Of a stretch of DNA of 20,727 bases, positions 10,530 to 20,727 are shown piece after piece (position 1 is the stretch's first letter; each line of letters begins with the position of its first letter). This stretch comes from Aduncisulcus paluster (Eukaryota > Fornicata). The notes under the pieces were generated by a model, which had not been told where the DNA came from, searched no databases, and saw only the letters and a program-made list of their open reading frames with translations. Location of the stretch: NCBI GenBank assembly GCA_024181965.1, contig BQXS01010957.1:1-20727 (forward strand). The letters are read 5' to 3'. A program made the translations under genes and the position numbers.

Positions 10530-10630
10530 TATATGGGTTATAATGAAAATATTAATTATGAAAATCTTAGTTACTATGTTAAATCTTGGTGAGGAGCATT
10601 TGTTCAAGTTTTTGGCCACAAAAACTGAAA

Positions 10631-13402
10631 ATGGTTCAATGGTTCACCATTCCAGGTGGCTGTAATTGGAAAAGTTATAAAAATGAGTTAAAAATAATTC
10701 AACACTCATGTATTAATGGTATCGCAACCGTCGAGGCTGTTGTCGATTGTTTTTTGAAATTACAGGAAATTAAGAGATGTGGAGACTTTCAAAAACGTTC
10801 TTTGACATTTATTTTCTCTGGAGCTTGCGATTTAGTTTCAAAACATAATGATCTATCATCTTCTCAAGTTCTTAATGATTCTATCGGAATGATGATTAAC
10901 TGTTGTCTTTTACTTGATCATAGGGATGGAATGGCTGATAAATTTGCAAAAATTTCTTCAAATAATCCTGTTTTTATTATTTCCCGTTTAATGTGTCTCT
11001 CGCTAAATGCTCTTGCCTTTTTAAATCTTTTTGATAATTATTCATATAATATGACCTTTCTAAAGTTTCCAGTGTCTCATTCTGGCAAGTATATTCCTGA
11101 AGATGGGATCCTCTTTCAGGTTGAGAAATGTGCTTGTATGCTCCAATACTTTATCGAGGCCAAATTTTCCTTTTCTGAGCTTGAAAAGAATTGTATTGTT
11201 CTTGTTCATCGTTCAATTTCAAAGAAATTTGTTCATGATGTTCTAAATCCCGAACCAATAATGAAATCTTCCAAAGGAAAGAAAAAGGGAAAGAAAAATA
11301 GATCAGTATATAGTAGTGATGAAATGGGAGTGTTTCTCGATGATTTCCATTATAAATCATTATATCCAACGTCGTGGGATATCTCTTCTGATCACTATGA
11401 AGCTATCATGGAGCAAAAACGGAAAGCAAGAAACCGACTCAAATTCAATTTTATTCCACAGTCCGTCCATAGTCATGGGGATACCGAGGTATGTCATGGC
11501 ACAAAACCCTCAATTACAATCTTATCGACGAAATCCTCTCTCCTCTCTCAGGAATTTATCTGTTCACGGACTGTTGGGGACTTTGCAAACAAGCACATCG
11601 GAGGTGGTGTGTTCGGTCGAGGAAGTGTCCAGGAAGAGATAATGTTTCTCACATGTCCGGACTTGTGTGTGAGTAAGTATTTATGTGAAGTTCTTGATGA
11701 TGAAAGTGCCGTGTGGATCTTCGGAGCACCATTAATCTCGAAATATGAAGGGTATAGTAGGAATTTTCGTTATGCCGGAAGAGTGAAGCTTCCAATTGAA
11801 TCGTATGGAAAAAAAAGTTCAGATAAAACTGATTCAATTCATCCGTTGTGCTTGTGTTCTGTTTCAGTGCAAGATATTCCCAAGGTTAAAATGGGTCAAA
11901 AAATATCTAAAACCCCAATTTCTCGTCAGATTAACATTTTGCCTTTTTGCATAACCGTGATGGATGCACTTCATTTTGAAGATAGCGGTTCTGATCTGTT
12001 ACAGCTTTGTCCTGGTAATTTTCTAAGAGAAGTTACAAAAGCCGTTGCAGCTTTTTCTCCTCCATCACTCCAACATATTCAAATTCGGGCCAGTGAGATG
12101 GGATCGGGATCATTGAGAACAGCGAGACCGTATTCTTATTCCGAGCTGATGAACAGCATTCTTGTTCTTTCACATGATGTTTGTTCCAACAATAATCCCT
12201 TGATCATTCGGACTCAGAACGTCAAAGATCTGTATGTTGGCGACCTCGTGAAGTGTAACTTCTATGACTCCGATTTGATCAATGAATGCATTGATTCGGA
12301 TGCTGGAGGGATAATGAAATTATTCTATCGACCGATTGTGAGTGGTCGGTGGGGATGTGGGGCCTTCAATGGTGATGGTCCCGTGAAAGGATTGGTGCAA
12401 ATGTTTGCACTATCAATTGCTAACTATCTGAACAGGGAGAAAATGGAGCAACAACTCAAGCAATCAGAGTATTCTCCTTCAGAATTTTTAATACATTTAG
12501 AACTGTGCCCATACAAAAACAAATCCGATAGTAAGTCATGGAAATCAATTGTAAAACGTATTTATTGTCGTGATATGTGTAGTTGTTTTCAAATATTATC
12601 CAATTTGGATAATTTCAGACAAGATGTGAAACAAAATGCAACATTGGCTGAATATATCAAATTTTGGGATCAATTTAATGAAGAAGAAGAAGAATCCCAA
12701 CCTGATGATCCTATTTTAGAGGCTGCTATAGTTCCTACAAAAGAGATTCAATCATCTGAACTGACTCAATCTTCCTTTGCAGAATCCATTCTATTGTCGA
12801 ATTCTGGTGGTGTATCATGTGACGTGTTATCATCTGTAATACCGTGTGATTCATCCTCCATTGTTCCCAGATCTGATCCAATACACGCCTCTTTAATACC
12901 AGAATATATCGATATATTCTCTGAAACTGTTTCTCAGAATGATGTTATTCCTCTAAATGCACCGATTGAGGTCAAAGATATGGAGGAGAGAAAAGAAGAA
13001 GAAGAGGAGGAGGGAAAAGAAGAAGAAAGAGAAGAAAAAGAGGAAGAAGAGGAGGAGGAAAAAGAAGAAGAAAGAGAAGAAAAAGAGGAAGAAGAGGAGG
13101 AGGAAAAAGAAGAAGAGGAAGAAGAGGAAGAAGGAGAAGAGGATGAAAAGAATGAAGAATCTTCGTCTGAATCTATTCAAACCCACATTTCCTCATTATC
13201 TATTACAATGGAAAGACAAATTGATTGCAAAGTTCCGAATCAACGTAAAATCTTTAGATTCTTTCGGAGAGTATCGTCTTCATTAATTTTATATAAAAAT
13301 CCTTTGCGTGAATATTATAAAAAACTTGAATTTCATTCTCTTTTTGACAAAACTCCCCAATATTCAAATCCATTGCAGAAAATTAGACAAAAGGCAAAAT
13401 AG
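10631..13402 (+). CDS. PARG: Poly(ADP-ribose) glycohydrolase (PARG) with long acidic tail
   Basis: 923 residues from the first in-frame ATG at 10631; the frame is open from 10583 but only a TTG lies further up. PARG cuts the ribose-ribose bonds of poly(ADP-ribose), reversing PARP action in DNA repair and signalling. The family signature is intact: D317-F-A-N, G324-G-G, then Q334-E335-E336, the two acidic residues of the active site. Also conserved are YEGYSRNFRYAG after it, MDALHF at 444-449, and GRWGCGAFNGD at 572-582. Residues 1-210 resemble the helical accessory part of the family. A Lys-rich insert (212-226, KSSKGKKKGKK) may be a nuclear signal. Residues about 785-845 are almost pure Glu with Lys/Arg, and the last 75 or so residues are basic. 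The tail is not part of the usual family. No intron is visible. The assignment is firm; the role of the tail is unknown. Confidence 0.93.
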   Translation: MVQWFTIPGGCNWKSYKNELKIIQHSCINGIATVEAVVDCFLKLQEIKRCGDFQKRSLTFIFSGACDLVSKHNDLSSSQVLNDSIGMMINCCLLLDHRDGMADKFAKISSNNPVFIISRLMCLSLNALAFLNLFDNYSYNMTFLKFPVSHSGKYIPEDGILFQVEKCACMLQYFIEAKFSFSELEKNCIVLVHRSISKKFVHDVLNPEPIMKSSKGKKKGKKNRSVYSSDEMGVFLDDFHYKSLYPTSWDISSDHYEAIMEQKRKARNRLKFNFIPQSVHSHGDTEVCHGTKPSITILSTKSSLLSQEFICSRTVGDFANKHIGGGVFGRGSVQEEIMFLTCPDLCVSKYLCEVLDDESAVWIFGAPLISKYEGYSRNFRYAGRVKLPIESYGKKSSDKTDSIHPLCLCSVSVQDIPKVKMGQKISKTPISRQINILPFCITVMDALHFEDSGSDLLQLCPGNFLREVTKAVAAFSPPSLQHIQIRASEMGSGSLRTARPYSYSELMNSILVLSHDVCSNNNPLIIRTQNVKDLYVGDLVKCNFYDSDLINECIDSDAGGIMKLFYRPIVSGRWGCGAFNGDGPVKGLVQMFALSIANYLNREKMEQQLKQSEYSPSEFLIHLELCPYKNKSDSKSWKSIVKRIYCRDMCSCFQILSNLDNFRQDVKQNATLAEYIKFWDQFNEEEEESQPDDPILEAAIVPTKEIQSSELTQSSFAESILLSNSGGVSCDVLSSVIPCDSSSIVPRSDPIHASLIPEYIDIFSETVSQNDVIPLNAPIEVKDMEERKEEEEEEGKEEEREEKEEEEEEEKEEEREEKEEEEEEEKEEEEEEEEGEEDEKNEESSSESIQTHISSLSITMERQIDCKVPNQRKIFRFFRRVSSSLILYKNPLREYYKKLEFHSLFDKTPQYSNPLQKIRQKAK
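13016..13105 (+). repeat. 45-bp tandem repeat in the PARG acidic tail
   Basis: Two identical 45-base copies, 13016-13060 and 13061-13105, each coding KEEEREEKEEEEEEE, followed by a partial third copy. The purine-only tract runs on to about 13150. The exact match at the DNA level, synonymous positions included, points to recent duplication by slippage or unequal exchange. Confidence 0.9.
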
Positions 13403-16247: not shown

Positions 16248-16653
16248 TCACTGAGCATCTTGTAAAGCTTGTTCTTGAGTCTTACCCCTAGCATATGGAT
16301 TGTACTGTAAAAGCTGATCAACAAGATCAACATGAGTCAAAATCATTCTTCTGCAGCAATATCTTGTTAATCCTAAGGCCTCTAGAGCTTCTCTATCAGA
16401 GGAGTATCAAAAAAAGAGCAAAAATGTAAGGAAAGAAATAATTGGGGGGGGAATAAGGGAAAAATGACAATAAACATACTTTTGAGATTTTCCATCGGCT
16501 AATAATTTTGTATATGTTTCATATAAGTTCCCTACAACGTAAAATAGAAAAAAAATAACAAGTTAGTGAAATATCATGAAAAAATCCAGAAAGAAAGAAA
16601 TAATGGGTAATACATATTTTTCCACAGGTAAAACAGCGAACTGGGATAATCAT
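16248..16653 (-). CDS. RPB10: RNA polymerase subunit Rpb10 (ABC10-beta), three exons
   Basis: Coding exons are 16653-16618, 16538-16480 and 16392-16248, joined to 79 residues plus TGA. Rpb10 is a small zinc protein shared by RNA polymerases I, II and III that helps assemble the Rpb3 side of the enzyme. The start [12 protein letters not shown], the VVGN that follows, and [16 protein letters not shown] then [11 protein letters not shown] match the family throughout. The zinc ligands are C7, C10, C44 and C45. The spacing between LL and ALxALGL is eight residues, as in known members, which fixes intron 2. The last 12 or so residues after QYNPYARG extend beyond the usual 67-70. The first intron is best read as AT-AC; a GT-AG alternative would give CGKIWNLY and lose the conserved VGN. 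No single open frame covers the gene, so it is easily missed. It is divergent from ABCE1. Confidence 0.9.
16393..16479 (-). other. RPB10 intron 2 (GT-AG)
   Basis: 87 bases, phase 2, from GTATGTTTATTG to CTCTGATAG. It has an in-frame TGA if retained. Removing it joins CAA AA to A GAA GCT and restores family spacing. The 3' end (CTGATAG) resembles a branch site placed right at the acceptor, as in the M3 gene intron. Confidence 0.85.
16539..16617 (-). other. RPB10 intron 1, apparent AT-AC intron
   Basis: 79 bases, phase 0, beginning ATATGTATTACC and ending CTATTTTAC. CACTAAC, a good U2-type branch site, lies inside, followed by a T-rich tract. The only AG near the end is TTGTAG, and using it (16613-16532, GT-AG) removes the conserved VVG. 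Reading through shifts the frame to an early TGA. The choice of AT-AC rests on protein conservation. Confidence 0.65.
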
Positions 16654-16981: not shown

Positions 16982-18814
16982 ATGAGTAAGACATCACGTA
17001 CAGCTATCGTTAATCCTGATCGCTGCAAGCCTGAGATATGTAGTCAGGAATGTCGTAGGGTGTGTCCAGTTGTTAAGATGGGGAAAAGATGTATCGTCGT
17101 CACAAAGAAGATTGCCATGCTTTCTGAAACTCTTTGTATTGGTTGTGGTATATGTCCAGGTAAATGTCCTTTTAAAGCAATCACAATTATCAATCTTCCA
17201 AGTGATTTGGATGAAAAACTCATTTACAGATATGGAAGAAATGCTTTTAAACTTCATCGGTTACCTACCCCTAGACCCGGTCAAATTCTTGGTTTGCTTG
17301 GTCAGAATGGTATTGGTAAAAGTACTGCTCTGAGAATTATGGCAGGAAAATTGGTTCCTAATTTTGGTAATTTCAAGGAAGAATCTGATTGGGAAGATGT
17401 CTGTGAATATTTCCGTGGTTCAGAATTGCAAGCATACTTTAAGAAAGTGGTGGAACAATCAATTGTTGTTCGTACAAAGCCTCAATACGTTGATGTTATT
17501 CCTAAGAAGATTCCTGGAAGTGTCGGAAACGTTTTAATGAAACTCCACTCAAAACCCCTTCCTATTGTCAAAGATATTATAGCGAAATTGGATCTTGTTC
17601 ATCTTCTCAAGCGTAAAATCAAACTTTTGTCCGGTGGTGAGCTTCAGAGATTCGCCTGTGCTTTGAGCATGGTTCAAACGGGAACAATGTACATGTTTGA
17701 TGAGCCTTCTTCATATTTAGATGTTAAACAGAGATTGACCGTTGCTAGAATGATTCGTGACATGATTGTCGGTGATCACGAGGTTTATTCCATCGTTGTT
17801 GAACATGATCTTGCTATTCTTGATTATTTGAGTGATTTTGTATGTGTTTTGTATGGTACCCCCGGTGTATATGGTGTGATCACCTTCCCATTCAACGTTA
17901 GAGATGGAATCAATGTATTTTTGGCTGGTTTTATCCAAACTGAGAATATGAGGTTCAGGGATTATGCTATTTCATTCAAAATGACAACAGATACCGATGA
18001 AGAAGAGGGTGAAGCCAGTGATGTCATCCGAGAGCAAGAATACCCCGATATGCGTATTGATAGAGACGAATTCCACCTCACTGTCGAGGCTGGAAAGTTC
18101 AGAGACTCTGAAATTGTTGTTCTTATCGGAGAAAACGGTATGGGTAAGACCACTCTGATCCGTGCTTTGGCTGGTATGAAGGGACTCGATCCCAAAGAGC
18201 TTGACAGTGATGATTTGGTCGATATGCCTTCCCTGTCTGTCTCCATGAAGCCTCAGAAACTCTCTCCTTCCTTTGAGGGTACAGTTGAGCAACTTCTCAA
18301 GAAGAGAATTAGGCCAGCTCTTTCCCATGCTCAATTCCAGACAGATGTGTTCAAACCTATGAACATGGATGTCCTCATGGACAGAACTGTCACTGAGCTG
18401 AGTGGAGGTGAGCTCCAACGTGTCGCTATCGTTATGGCTCTTGGAAAGCCTGCTGATGTCTATCTTCTCGATGAGCCCAGTGCTTACCTTGATGCCGAAC
18501 AGCGTATGATCACCGCAAAGGTTATCAAGAGGTTTATTTTACATTCCAAGAAGACTGCGTTCGTTGTTGAGCATGATTTCTTGATGTCCACCTACCTTGC
18601 TGACCGTGTGATCATCTACTCCGGTGAACCTGGTGTGAAATGTACTGCTCACGCTCCCCAGGGTCTTGTTGCTGGAATGAACACTTTCTTGAAGAGTCTT
18701 GATGTCACTTTCAGGCGTGATCCAACCAACTTTAGACCTAGGATTAACAAATTCCTCTCTCAAAAGGATAAGGAACAGAAGGCCACCGGTGATTTCTTCT
18801 TCGAGGAGAAGTAA
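16982..18814 (+). CDS. ABCE1: ABCE1 / Rli1 ribosome-recycling ATPase
   Basis: 610 residues from ATG to TAA, the normal family length, without introns. ABCE1 is a soluble twin ATPase that splits ribosomes after termination and works in initiation. Two 4Fe-4S clusters are indicated by C15, C20, C24, C28 and C52-x2-C55-x2-C58-x3-C62, with one more Cys at 37. The first nucleotide-binding domain has Walker A GQNGIGKST at 107-115, signature LSGGE at 216-220 and Walker B ending D240-E241, with VVEHD after it. The second has GENGMGKTT at 383-391, LSGGE at 473-477, LLDEPSAYLD with D497-E498, and VVEHD. All key residues are present, so it should be active. By eye the codons of the second half end in C or G more often than those of the first half. 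A possible polyadenylation signal AATAAA lies at 18897-18902. Confidence 0.97.
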   Translation: MSKTSRTAIVNPDRCKPEICSQECRRVCPVVKMGKRCIVVTKKIAMLSETLCIGCGICPGKCPFKAITIINLPSDLDEKLIYRYGRNAFKLHRLPTPRPGQILGLLGQNGIGKSTALRIMAGKLVPNFGNFKEESDWEDVCEYFRGSELQAYFKKVVEQSIVVRTKPQYVDVIPKKIPGSVGNVLMKLHSKPLPIVKDIIAKLDLVHLLKRKIKLLSGGELQRFACALSMVQTGTMYMFDEPSSYLDVKQRLTVARMIRDMIVGDHEVYSIVVEHDLAILDYLSDFVCVLYGTPGVYGVITFPFNVRDGINVFLAGFIQTENMRFRDYAISFKMTTDTDEEEGEASDVIREQEYPDMRIDRDEFHLTVEAGKFRDSEIVVLIGENGMGKTTLIRALAGMKGLDPKELDSDDLVDMPSLSVSMKPQKLSPSFEGTVEQLLKKRIRPALSHAQFQTDVFKPMNMDVLMDRTVTELSGGELQRVAIVMALGKPADVYLLDEPSAYLDAEQRMITAKVIKRFILHSKKTAFVVEHDFLMSTYLADRVIIYSGEPGVKCTAHAPQGLVAGMNTFLKSLDVTFRRDPTNFRPRINKFLSQKDKEQKATGDFFFEEK

Positions 18815-19060: not shown

Positions 19061-20727
19061 ATGGATTTTATTCCTTCATGTATGTTGTGTTTACTTATCT
19101 GTTTATTCTTTTCTCCTTGTATAAATATGTTTTAAAACGAATCTAATTTGTCATGAATATTGTTGTCGCTATTCACTCTGTTTTAACATAGTTTCAAAAG
19201 ATATTCATCCAGAATTTGCTTGCAGATGGAATTTAACTCCCCATGAAATCGAAGCCTTGACTGAATATTGTATTGATGTCGATAAGCGTCTTGTTGATAC
19301 AATCGTCAGAATTCCTGACTGCCACCGCACATACGAAAATACAGTTCAACCTCTGGTTCAAGATGTTTTGTATGAATCAATTGAATCTAGTTTCACCATC
19401 GTTTCTTACGTATCCAAGTTCAAATCTGTAAGAGAAGCATCTTACAAAGCCAGAGATAAACTTAGTCAGTATGGAGTTGGTCGATACATGCGTAAAGATC
19501 TTTATTTGGCCCTCAAGGCTGTTCATATTAATGAAGTCGAGAAAGCCAAAATCCATCCTGAAGAGGTGAGAATTCTCGATAAAATGGTAAGAAACAGGGA
19601 ACAACGGGGTCTTATGCTACCTATTGATGAGCGTGAGAAATTGACCAAACTCAAGCAAAAGATGGCCTCTCTCAAAACTGAGTTTAATCAAGCTGTGCAA
19701 TCAGATGATACCCAATTCCTTTTCACCTCTGATGACCTCAAAGGATTGCCCGAGTCCTTCTTTAAAGGTCTTGAGAAGAAGAAAGATGATGATGGTATTG
19801 AGAAATTCGTTGTGACCCTGAAATATCCTCACCTTGTCCCAATATTACAGAAATGTTCTGTCAGAAAAACAAGACAACTCATGGAAAAGGCAAAGAACAA
19901 TATTGGAAATCCCAAGAATTTGGACCGTCTGTTGGAGATTGTGAAGCTTCGTCATGAAGTTGCCCAATTATTGGGTTACAAGAGTCATGCTCATCTCGTT
20001 CAGATTGAGAATATGGCTAAGAATCCTGAGAAGGTTCAAGATTTCTTGAATGATATCTTCTCTAAATTCAAGAAACAGGCTGACCTTGAGAGAGAACGTG
20101 CCTTCTCCATCGGAAGGGAAGAATGTGGGGAGTCTGTTGCCGTCGATGAGGGTGAACAAGAGATGTTCAACGCCTGTGATATCTCATATTTGCTCCAAAA
20201 GATCGAAGAGAAGGAGTACCAATTCGATAAGGAACTTGTACGTCCCTATTTTGAGCTCTCTTCCACTTTTAAGAGTATCTTTGCTATTTTTGAAGAAGTG
20301 CTCGGTGTTGAGATCATTGAAGTCGAAAAGGAAGTAGATGAACCAGAATTGAAGGAAGAAAAAGAGGAAGGAGCAAAGGAAGAGGAAGGAGCAAAGGAAG
20401 AGGAAGGAGCGAAAGAGGAGGAAGGAGAAGAGAAAAAGGAAGAGAAGAGTCCCGTTGATAAAGATGCTTTGATTGCTGAAGGATGTTTGATTGCTCAACG
20501 GATCCGTAAGACATCCATGCTCACTTCCGATGGGAAAGTTCGTGTTTGGCATGCCGATGTTCGTCCATTTGCTGTATATACTGCTGAGGACCCTGAAAAC
20601 CCTCTCCCTAAAGAGCACCGTTTCCTCGGTTACCTTGTGTGTGACCTTCATCCAAGGACTGGAAAGTATTCCCACGCCTGTATGCTTCCAATCGTTCAAC
20701 CCTGTCGTAGACGATTCTGGGACTCCT
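19061..20727 (+). CDS. M3 family zinc oligopeptidase (thimet oligopeptidase/saccharolysin type), 3' end outside the window
   Basis: Exon 1 is 19061-19079 (MDFIPS plus one base) and exon 2 runs from 19192 to the right edge, giving 518 residues so far. M3 enzymes cut short peptides in the cytosol or organelles after the proteasome or in salvage. Evidence: an N-terminal ENTVQPL element, the YFELSSTFKSIF-FEEVLG helix region, then VWHADVRPFAVY and FLGYLVCDLHPRTGKYSHAC, all in family order. The zinc site HExxH lies beyond the edge, so activity cannot be judged. Exon 2 has no ATG at its start and is open only from 19125; splicing the GTATGT intron supplies one. About 70 extra residues (385-455), mostly Glu/Lys/Gly, sit just before VWHADVR, where relatives have only a few. 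No signal peptide is seen. Confidence 0.9.
19080..19191 (+). other. Intron in the M3 peptidase gene
   Basis: 112 bases, phase 1, from GTATGT to TTTTAACATAG. The donor is a perfect GTATGT. The acceptor carries a branch-like TTTTAAC directly before ATAG. Reading through from the ATG meets TAA after 24 codons. Removal joins T to TT (Phe7) and gives a protein start that leads into the family N-terminus. Confidence 0.85.
20364..20417 (+). repeat. 18-bp tandem repeat in the M3 peptidase insertion
   Basis: Three copies of an 18-base unit coding EEGAKE at 20364, 20382 and 20400; a fourth, changed copy follows. The first two are identical at DNA level and the third differs at wobble positions. It forms the core of the acidic insertion. 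Confidence 0.85.

Follow-up and report, generated by a model that had tools for sequence, protein, structure and literature searches.

A probable U2-type AT-AC intron in the RPB10 gene of Aduncisulcus paluster

The RPB10 gene encodes a subunit common to RNA polymerases I, II and III. It occurs once in the searched part of the A. paluster assembly (7.09 Mb), on the minus strand of the window, that is, the whole analysed stretch of 20,727 nucleotides (contig BQXS01010957.1). The first intron of this gene seems to start with AT and to end with AC, and the question is whether these are its boundaries and, if so, which spliceosome would remove it. The features of the gene are the following.

16618–16653, minus strand: RPB10 exon 1, encoding 12 residues and ending in CGK (sequence reading and scripted splicing)
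16539–16617, minus strand: AT-AC intron of 79 nt, donor ATATGT, acceptor TTTTAC, GC content 21.5%
16562–16568, minus strand: CACTAAC, putative branch-like site, located by script
16480–16538, minus strand: RPB10 exon 2, opening with VVGN (scripted splicing)
16393–16479, minus strand: second RPB10 intron, GT-AG, 87 nt, donor GTATGT (scripted splicing)
16248–16392, minus strand: RPB10 exon 3, up to the stop codon (scripted splicing)

The divergent neighbour of RPB10 is an ABCE1/RLI1-like open frame of 610 aa (16982–18814, plus strand; ABC_tran, Fer4_RLI). A probable GT-AG intron (GTATGT...AACATAG, 112 nt) at 19080–19191, plus strand, sits early in a gene that has a Peptidase_M3 match of 105.5 bits in its downstream frame; the intron falls outside the matched domain. 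The window also contains a 938-aa frame with a match to the PARG catalytic domain (macro-domain fold, 126.5 bits) and a glutamate/lysine-rich tract (10586–13402, plus strand), and an open frame of 2,518 codons that runs off the window end (7554–1, minus strand).

The sequence-only reading had placed the intron from ATATGT to TTTTAC, at 16617–16539, between CGK and VVGN, and scripted splicing agrees with it. On the minus strand, exon 1 closes with ...TGTGGAAAA, the intron opens with ATATGTATTACC... and closes with ...CACTAACTTGTTATTTTTTTTCTATTTTAC, and exon 2 opens with GTTGTAGGGAAC... The A of the branch-like CACTAAC is situated 24 nt before the last intron base, with a T-rich tract in between. 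The donor is identical to the local GTATGT with the first G replaced by A, as the same reading had pointed out; GTATGT is the donor of intron 2 of RPB10, and it also occurs in probable introns from other stretches of the genome, as judged by eye. A slide of the junction is excluded, since moving both ends by one base gives a different protein, as the rows with KIVG and GNVV in the pair scan described below show. The reverse complement of the intron reads GT...AT, and hence a GT-AG intron on the opposite strand does not explain the AT-AC ends. A DNA search of 7.09 Mb out of the published 29.4 Mb for further copies, as expected of a repeat, matched only the intron itself.

The product spliced at the AT-AC junction is a 79-aa RPB10 that matches the Pfam family RNA_pol_N (PF01194, gathering cut-off 26.9 bits) with 105.4 bits over residues 2–59. 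We scanned every donor/acceptor pair of the region whose product stays in frame and free of stops (n = 1,687) against a profile built from 119 homologs (the best 120 of 2,764, with the A. paluster protein excluded). The AT-AC pair 16618/16538 ranks first with 137.5 bits. Just behind it, at 136.6 bits, come rows that read KIVG, with ends of the kind TA...CG. AT-AC pairs make up 12 of the 1,687, so that one of them would take first place by chance about 0.7% of the time. The homologs were gathered with the AT-AC product as the query, which gives the profile a mild lean towards this junction; Pfam is free of this lean and agrees.

A conventional GT-AG intron using displaced sites (16613–16532, GTATTA...GTTGTAG) would yield a protein with CGKIWN, the VVG-coding bases being a relic of the exon. 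It has canonical ends, retains the frame and is the best of the six in-frame GT-AG pairs scanned. However, it ranks 155th of the 1,687 pairs with 124.4 bits, 13 bits below the AT-AC pair, its Pfam score is 94.8 bits, and its donor lacks G at position +5. After CGK or CGR all 119 other homologs (again from the best 120 of 2,764) read [VI]-x-[GA]: a single pattern after CG[KR] covers 117 of them (VVG 52, VIG 42, IIG 11, VTG 9, VVA 1, ITG 1, VIA 1), and the remaining two, read by eye, have VVG (CYSCGKVVGN). IWN is found in 0 of these 119 homologs; relatives with CGKIWN were what the sequence-only reading had named as evidence against itself. Three solved RPB10 chains align over residues 1–67 or 1–69 and read CGKVIGD, CGKVVGD and CGKVIGN at the junction. 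The deposited protein, considered next, has VVGN as well. The shifted GT-AG intron is thus very unlikely.

The databases contain one identical protein of 79 aa, annotated as "DNA-directed RNA polymerase, subunit N/Rpb10 like protein" from A. paluster. It is obtained from exactly one of 14,229 donor/acceptor pairs, the AT-AC pair 16618/16538, so the public gene model already reads this intron as AT-AC. Gene predictors of the kind used here, BRAKER2 with TopHat, are not known to take AT-AC introns without read support. According to the genome paper (PMC9933649), the A. paluster gene set comes from BRAKER2, supplied with RNA-seq that TopHat had aligned, and since the annotation was guided by RNA-seq, the AT-AC junction was probably seen in the RNA behind it. 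The same paper counts 11,743 introns and gives them without a splice-site breakdown (PMC9933649).

One may also suppose an assembly or sequencing error at the ends of a true GT-AG intron. The published genome is described as a short-read draft of 29.4 Mb in 25,863 contigs with 40.4% BUSCO (PMC9933649), and the deposited protein fixes the junction, not the end bases of the intron. Yet this explanation requires two independent errors exactly at both intron ends, and we consider it the least probable of the alternatives. The AT-AC reading of the junction, being the best of the scanned pairs and the sole one to give the deposited protein, is confirmed as far as sequence evidence goes.

The class of the intron is less straightforward. 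The U12 donor consensus is [AG]TATCCTT, and the U12 branch consensus is TTCCTTRAC. The donor ATATGT is U2-like except at position +1; compared with the U12 donor ATATCCTT, it agrees at five of eight bases and lacks the CC. The nine bases ending at the branch-like site, TTCACTAAC, agree with the U12 branch TTCCTTAAC at seven of nine positions, and hence the branch alone is not decisive for the class. The earlier claim that U12 signals are absent therefore holds for the donor and is too strong for the branch. The distance of 24 nt between the branch A and the last intron base exceeds the spacing usual in U12 introns. The distinction between the U2 and U12 classes is carried by the donor and by this predicted spacing. 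The proposed U2-type assignment keeps the donor, the branch spacing and the T-rich tract in its favour, while its branch argument is offset by the 7/9 match, and on balance the intron is probably U2-type.

The snRNA data are consistent with this, within their reach. A U2 snRNA gene is present (63.2 bits, cut-off 46) and has the usual GUAGUA branch-pairing stretch (UGUAGUA); it is located at L028:1501–1708 on the minus strand. Neither U12 nor U6atac gave a match in 7.09 Mb of 29.4 Mb, in a search that found U2 and missed U1 and U6 too; in the control genomes none of these snRNA families produced a match. On the minus strand of L029, at about base 1500 of the reverse complement, a T run follows an exact copy of ACAGAGATGATTAGC. 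This site may be a divergent U6 gene, a candidate that cmscan did not confirm. A survey of two Spironucleus species is reported to have found no minor-snRNA candidates, while most major ones were missed too (PMC6679479). An intron removed by the minor spliceosome would account for the AT-AC ends and for the 7/9 branch match. Against it are the donor without CC, the long branch spacing, the T-rich tract and, as weak evidence, the two snRNA surveys, and a U12-type intron seems very unlikely.

The sequence-only reading had further suggested a genome search for other introns of the ATATGT...AC kind, and our pattern scans of 7.09 Mb, which are insensitive, revealed none. The pattern ATATGT-CTAAC-TTTAC has four matches in 7.09 Mb versus 14 for the reversed pattern. 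Apart from the RPB10 intron itself, one of the four lies inside an 837-codon open frame, and two are tandem copies within a single open frame of 1,027 codons. The looser ATATGT...AC pattern gives 42 matches, the RPB10 intron included, versus 50 in the control. Six other loose-pattern matches, picked by eye as the most intron-like, have flanks that show no two convincing coding exons joined, and a seventh is the 837-codon case again.

The matching GT-AG pattern yields two matches versus six in the control. In 185 kb, a script demanding a CTAAC-like branch counted 14 GTATGT-AG, 14 ATATGT-AC, 15 ATATGT-AG and 10 GTATGT-AC donor sites, with no excess for either the GT-AG or the AT-AC kind. As the patterns do not pick out GT-AG introns either, little can be read into the lack of other AT-AC introns, and the scans speak only against a large class of them. 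A scan of 147,558 bases for donors at a transition from coding to AT-rich sequence passed 5 of 72 GTATGT, 1 of 28 GTAAGT, 4 of 103 ATATGT (the RPB10 intron included) and 6 of 66 ATAAGT sites, and 1 of 94 TTATGT, 0 of 38 CTATGT, 0 of 46 TTAAGT and 0 of 23 CTAAGT sites; it missed intron 2 of RPB10 and is too blunt for rates. The three other ATATGT sites that passed look like coding or upstream sequence by eye.

Taken together, the RPB10 intron is very probably an isolated AT-AC intron of the U2 type, with both terminal bases changed, which the major spliceosome would remove. The ancestral intron would have been GT-AG, and replacement of its first base (G to A) and its last base (G to C) would have produced the AT-AC ends, the remaining signals (donor TATGT, branch-like CACTAAC, T-rich tract) apparently staying of the major class. 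The first and last bases of U2-type AT-AC introns are read together in the second splicing step, so such a paired change may be tolerated. Removal would then proceed by the major spliceosome, as for the known introns of this type.

AT-AC introns of the U2 type are seldom met with, and those that occur in nature put to the test the idea that the first and last intron bases are recognised jointly. The present one resides in an essential gene of a free-living organism related to Giardia; in Giardia itself, an AT-AC intron has been reported, as have snRNAs of mixed character (PMC3510501). It provides a clean test case and not a new principle, this kind of exception being already known. A broader possibility, to which we give little credence, is that tolerance of changes at the first and last intron bases is a trait of the fornicate lineage (Giardia, Aduncisulcus), with one reduced major spliceosome handling AT-AC introns in constitutive genes. 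If so, the RPB10 intron would be one of a set scattered over the A. paluster genome.

Our searches of the open-licence literature turned up no study of Aduncisulcus that deals with AT-AC introns. U2-type AT-AC introns were reportedly described by Wu and Krainer in 1997 and by Dietrich et al. in 1997, human SCN4A intron 21 being the example, and the AT-AC intron of Giardia lamblia is said to have been treated by Roy et al. in 2012 (Mol Biol Evol 29:43). The RPB10 intron shares with SCN4A intron 21 the AT-AC ends and, as its signals suggest, removal by the major spliceosome; it differs in gene, lineage and length. Splicing of SCN4A intron 21 is said to depend on the major spliceosome (PMC2831892), AT-AC termini are said not to be exclusive to U12-type introns (PMC3584512), and the U2-type spliceosome is said to recognise AT-AC introns poorly (PMC7367187). 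AT-AC pairs of any class are reported to make up 0.101% of splice-site combinations across the animals, fungi and plants surveyed (PMC7072748). With U12-type AT-AC introns the RPB10 intron has in common the terminal dinucleotides and the partial branch match, whereas its donor is ATATGT and not ATATCC, its branch spacing is longer and it has a T-rich tract.

Among the fornicates, Kipferlia is credited with 124,912 GU-AG introns (PMC5874029), and 11,743 annotated introns of A. paluster are set against eight in Giardia in the A. paluster paper (PMC9933649). A 2023 survey of Giardia lists one AT-AC junction, rarely spliced, among 42 candidates; its control introns have [GC]TATGT donors and a branch site that is merged with the 3' end (PMC10711314). 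Thus A. paluster resembles Giardia lamblia in having an AT-AC intron in a fornicate genome with donors of the TATGT kind, but the branch-like site of the RPB10 intron, unlike the fused sites of Giardia, stands 24 nt upstream of the intron end.
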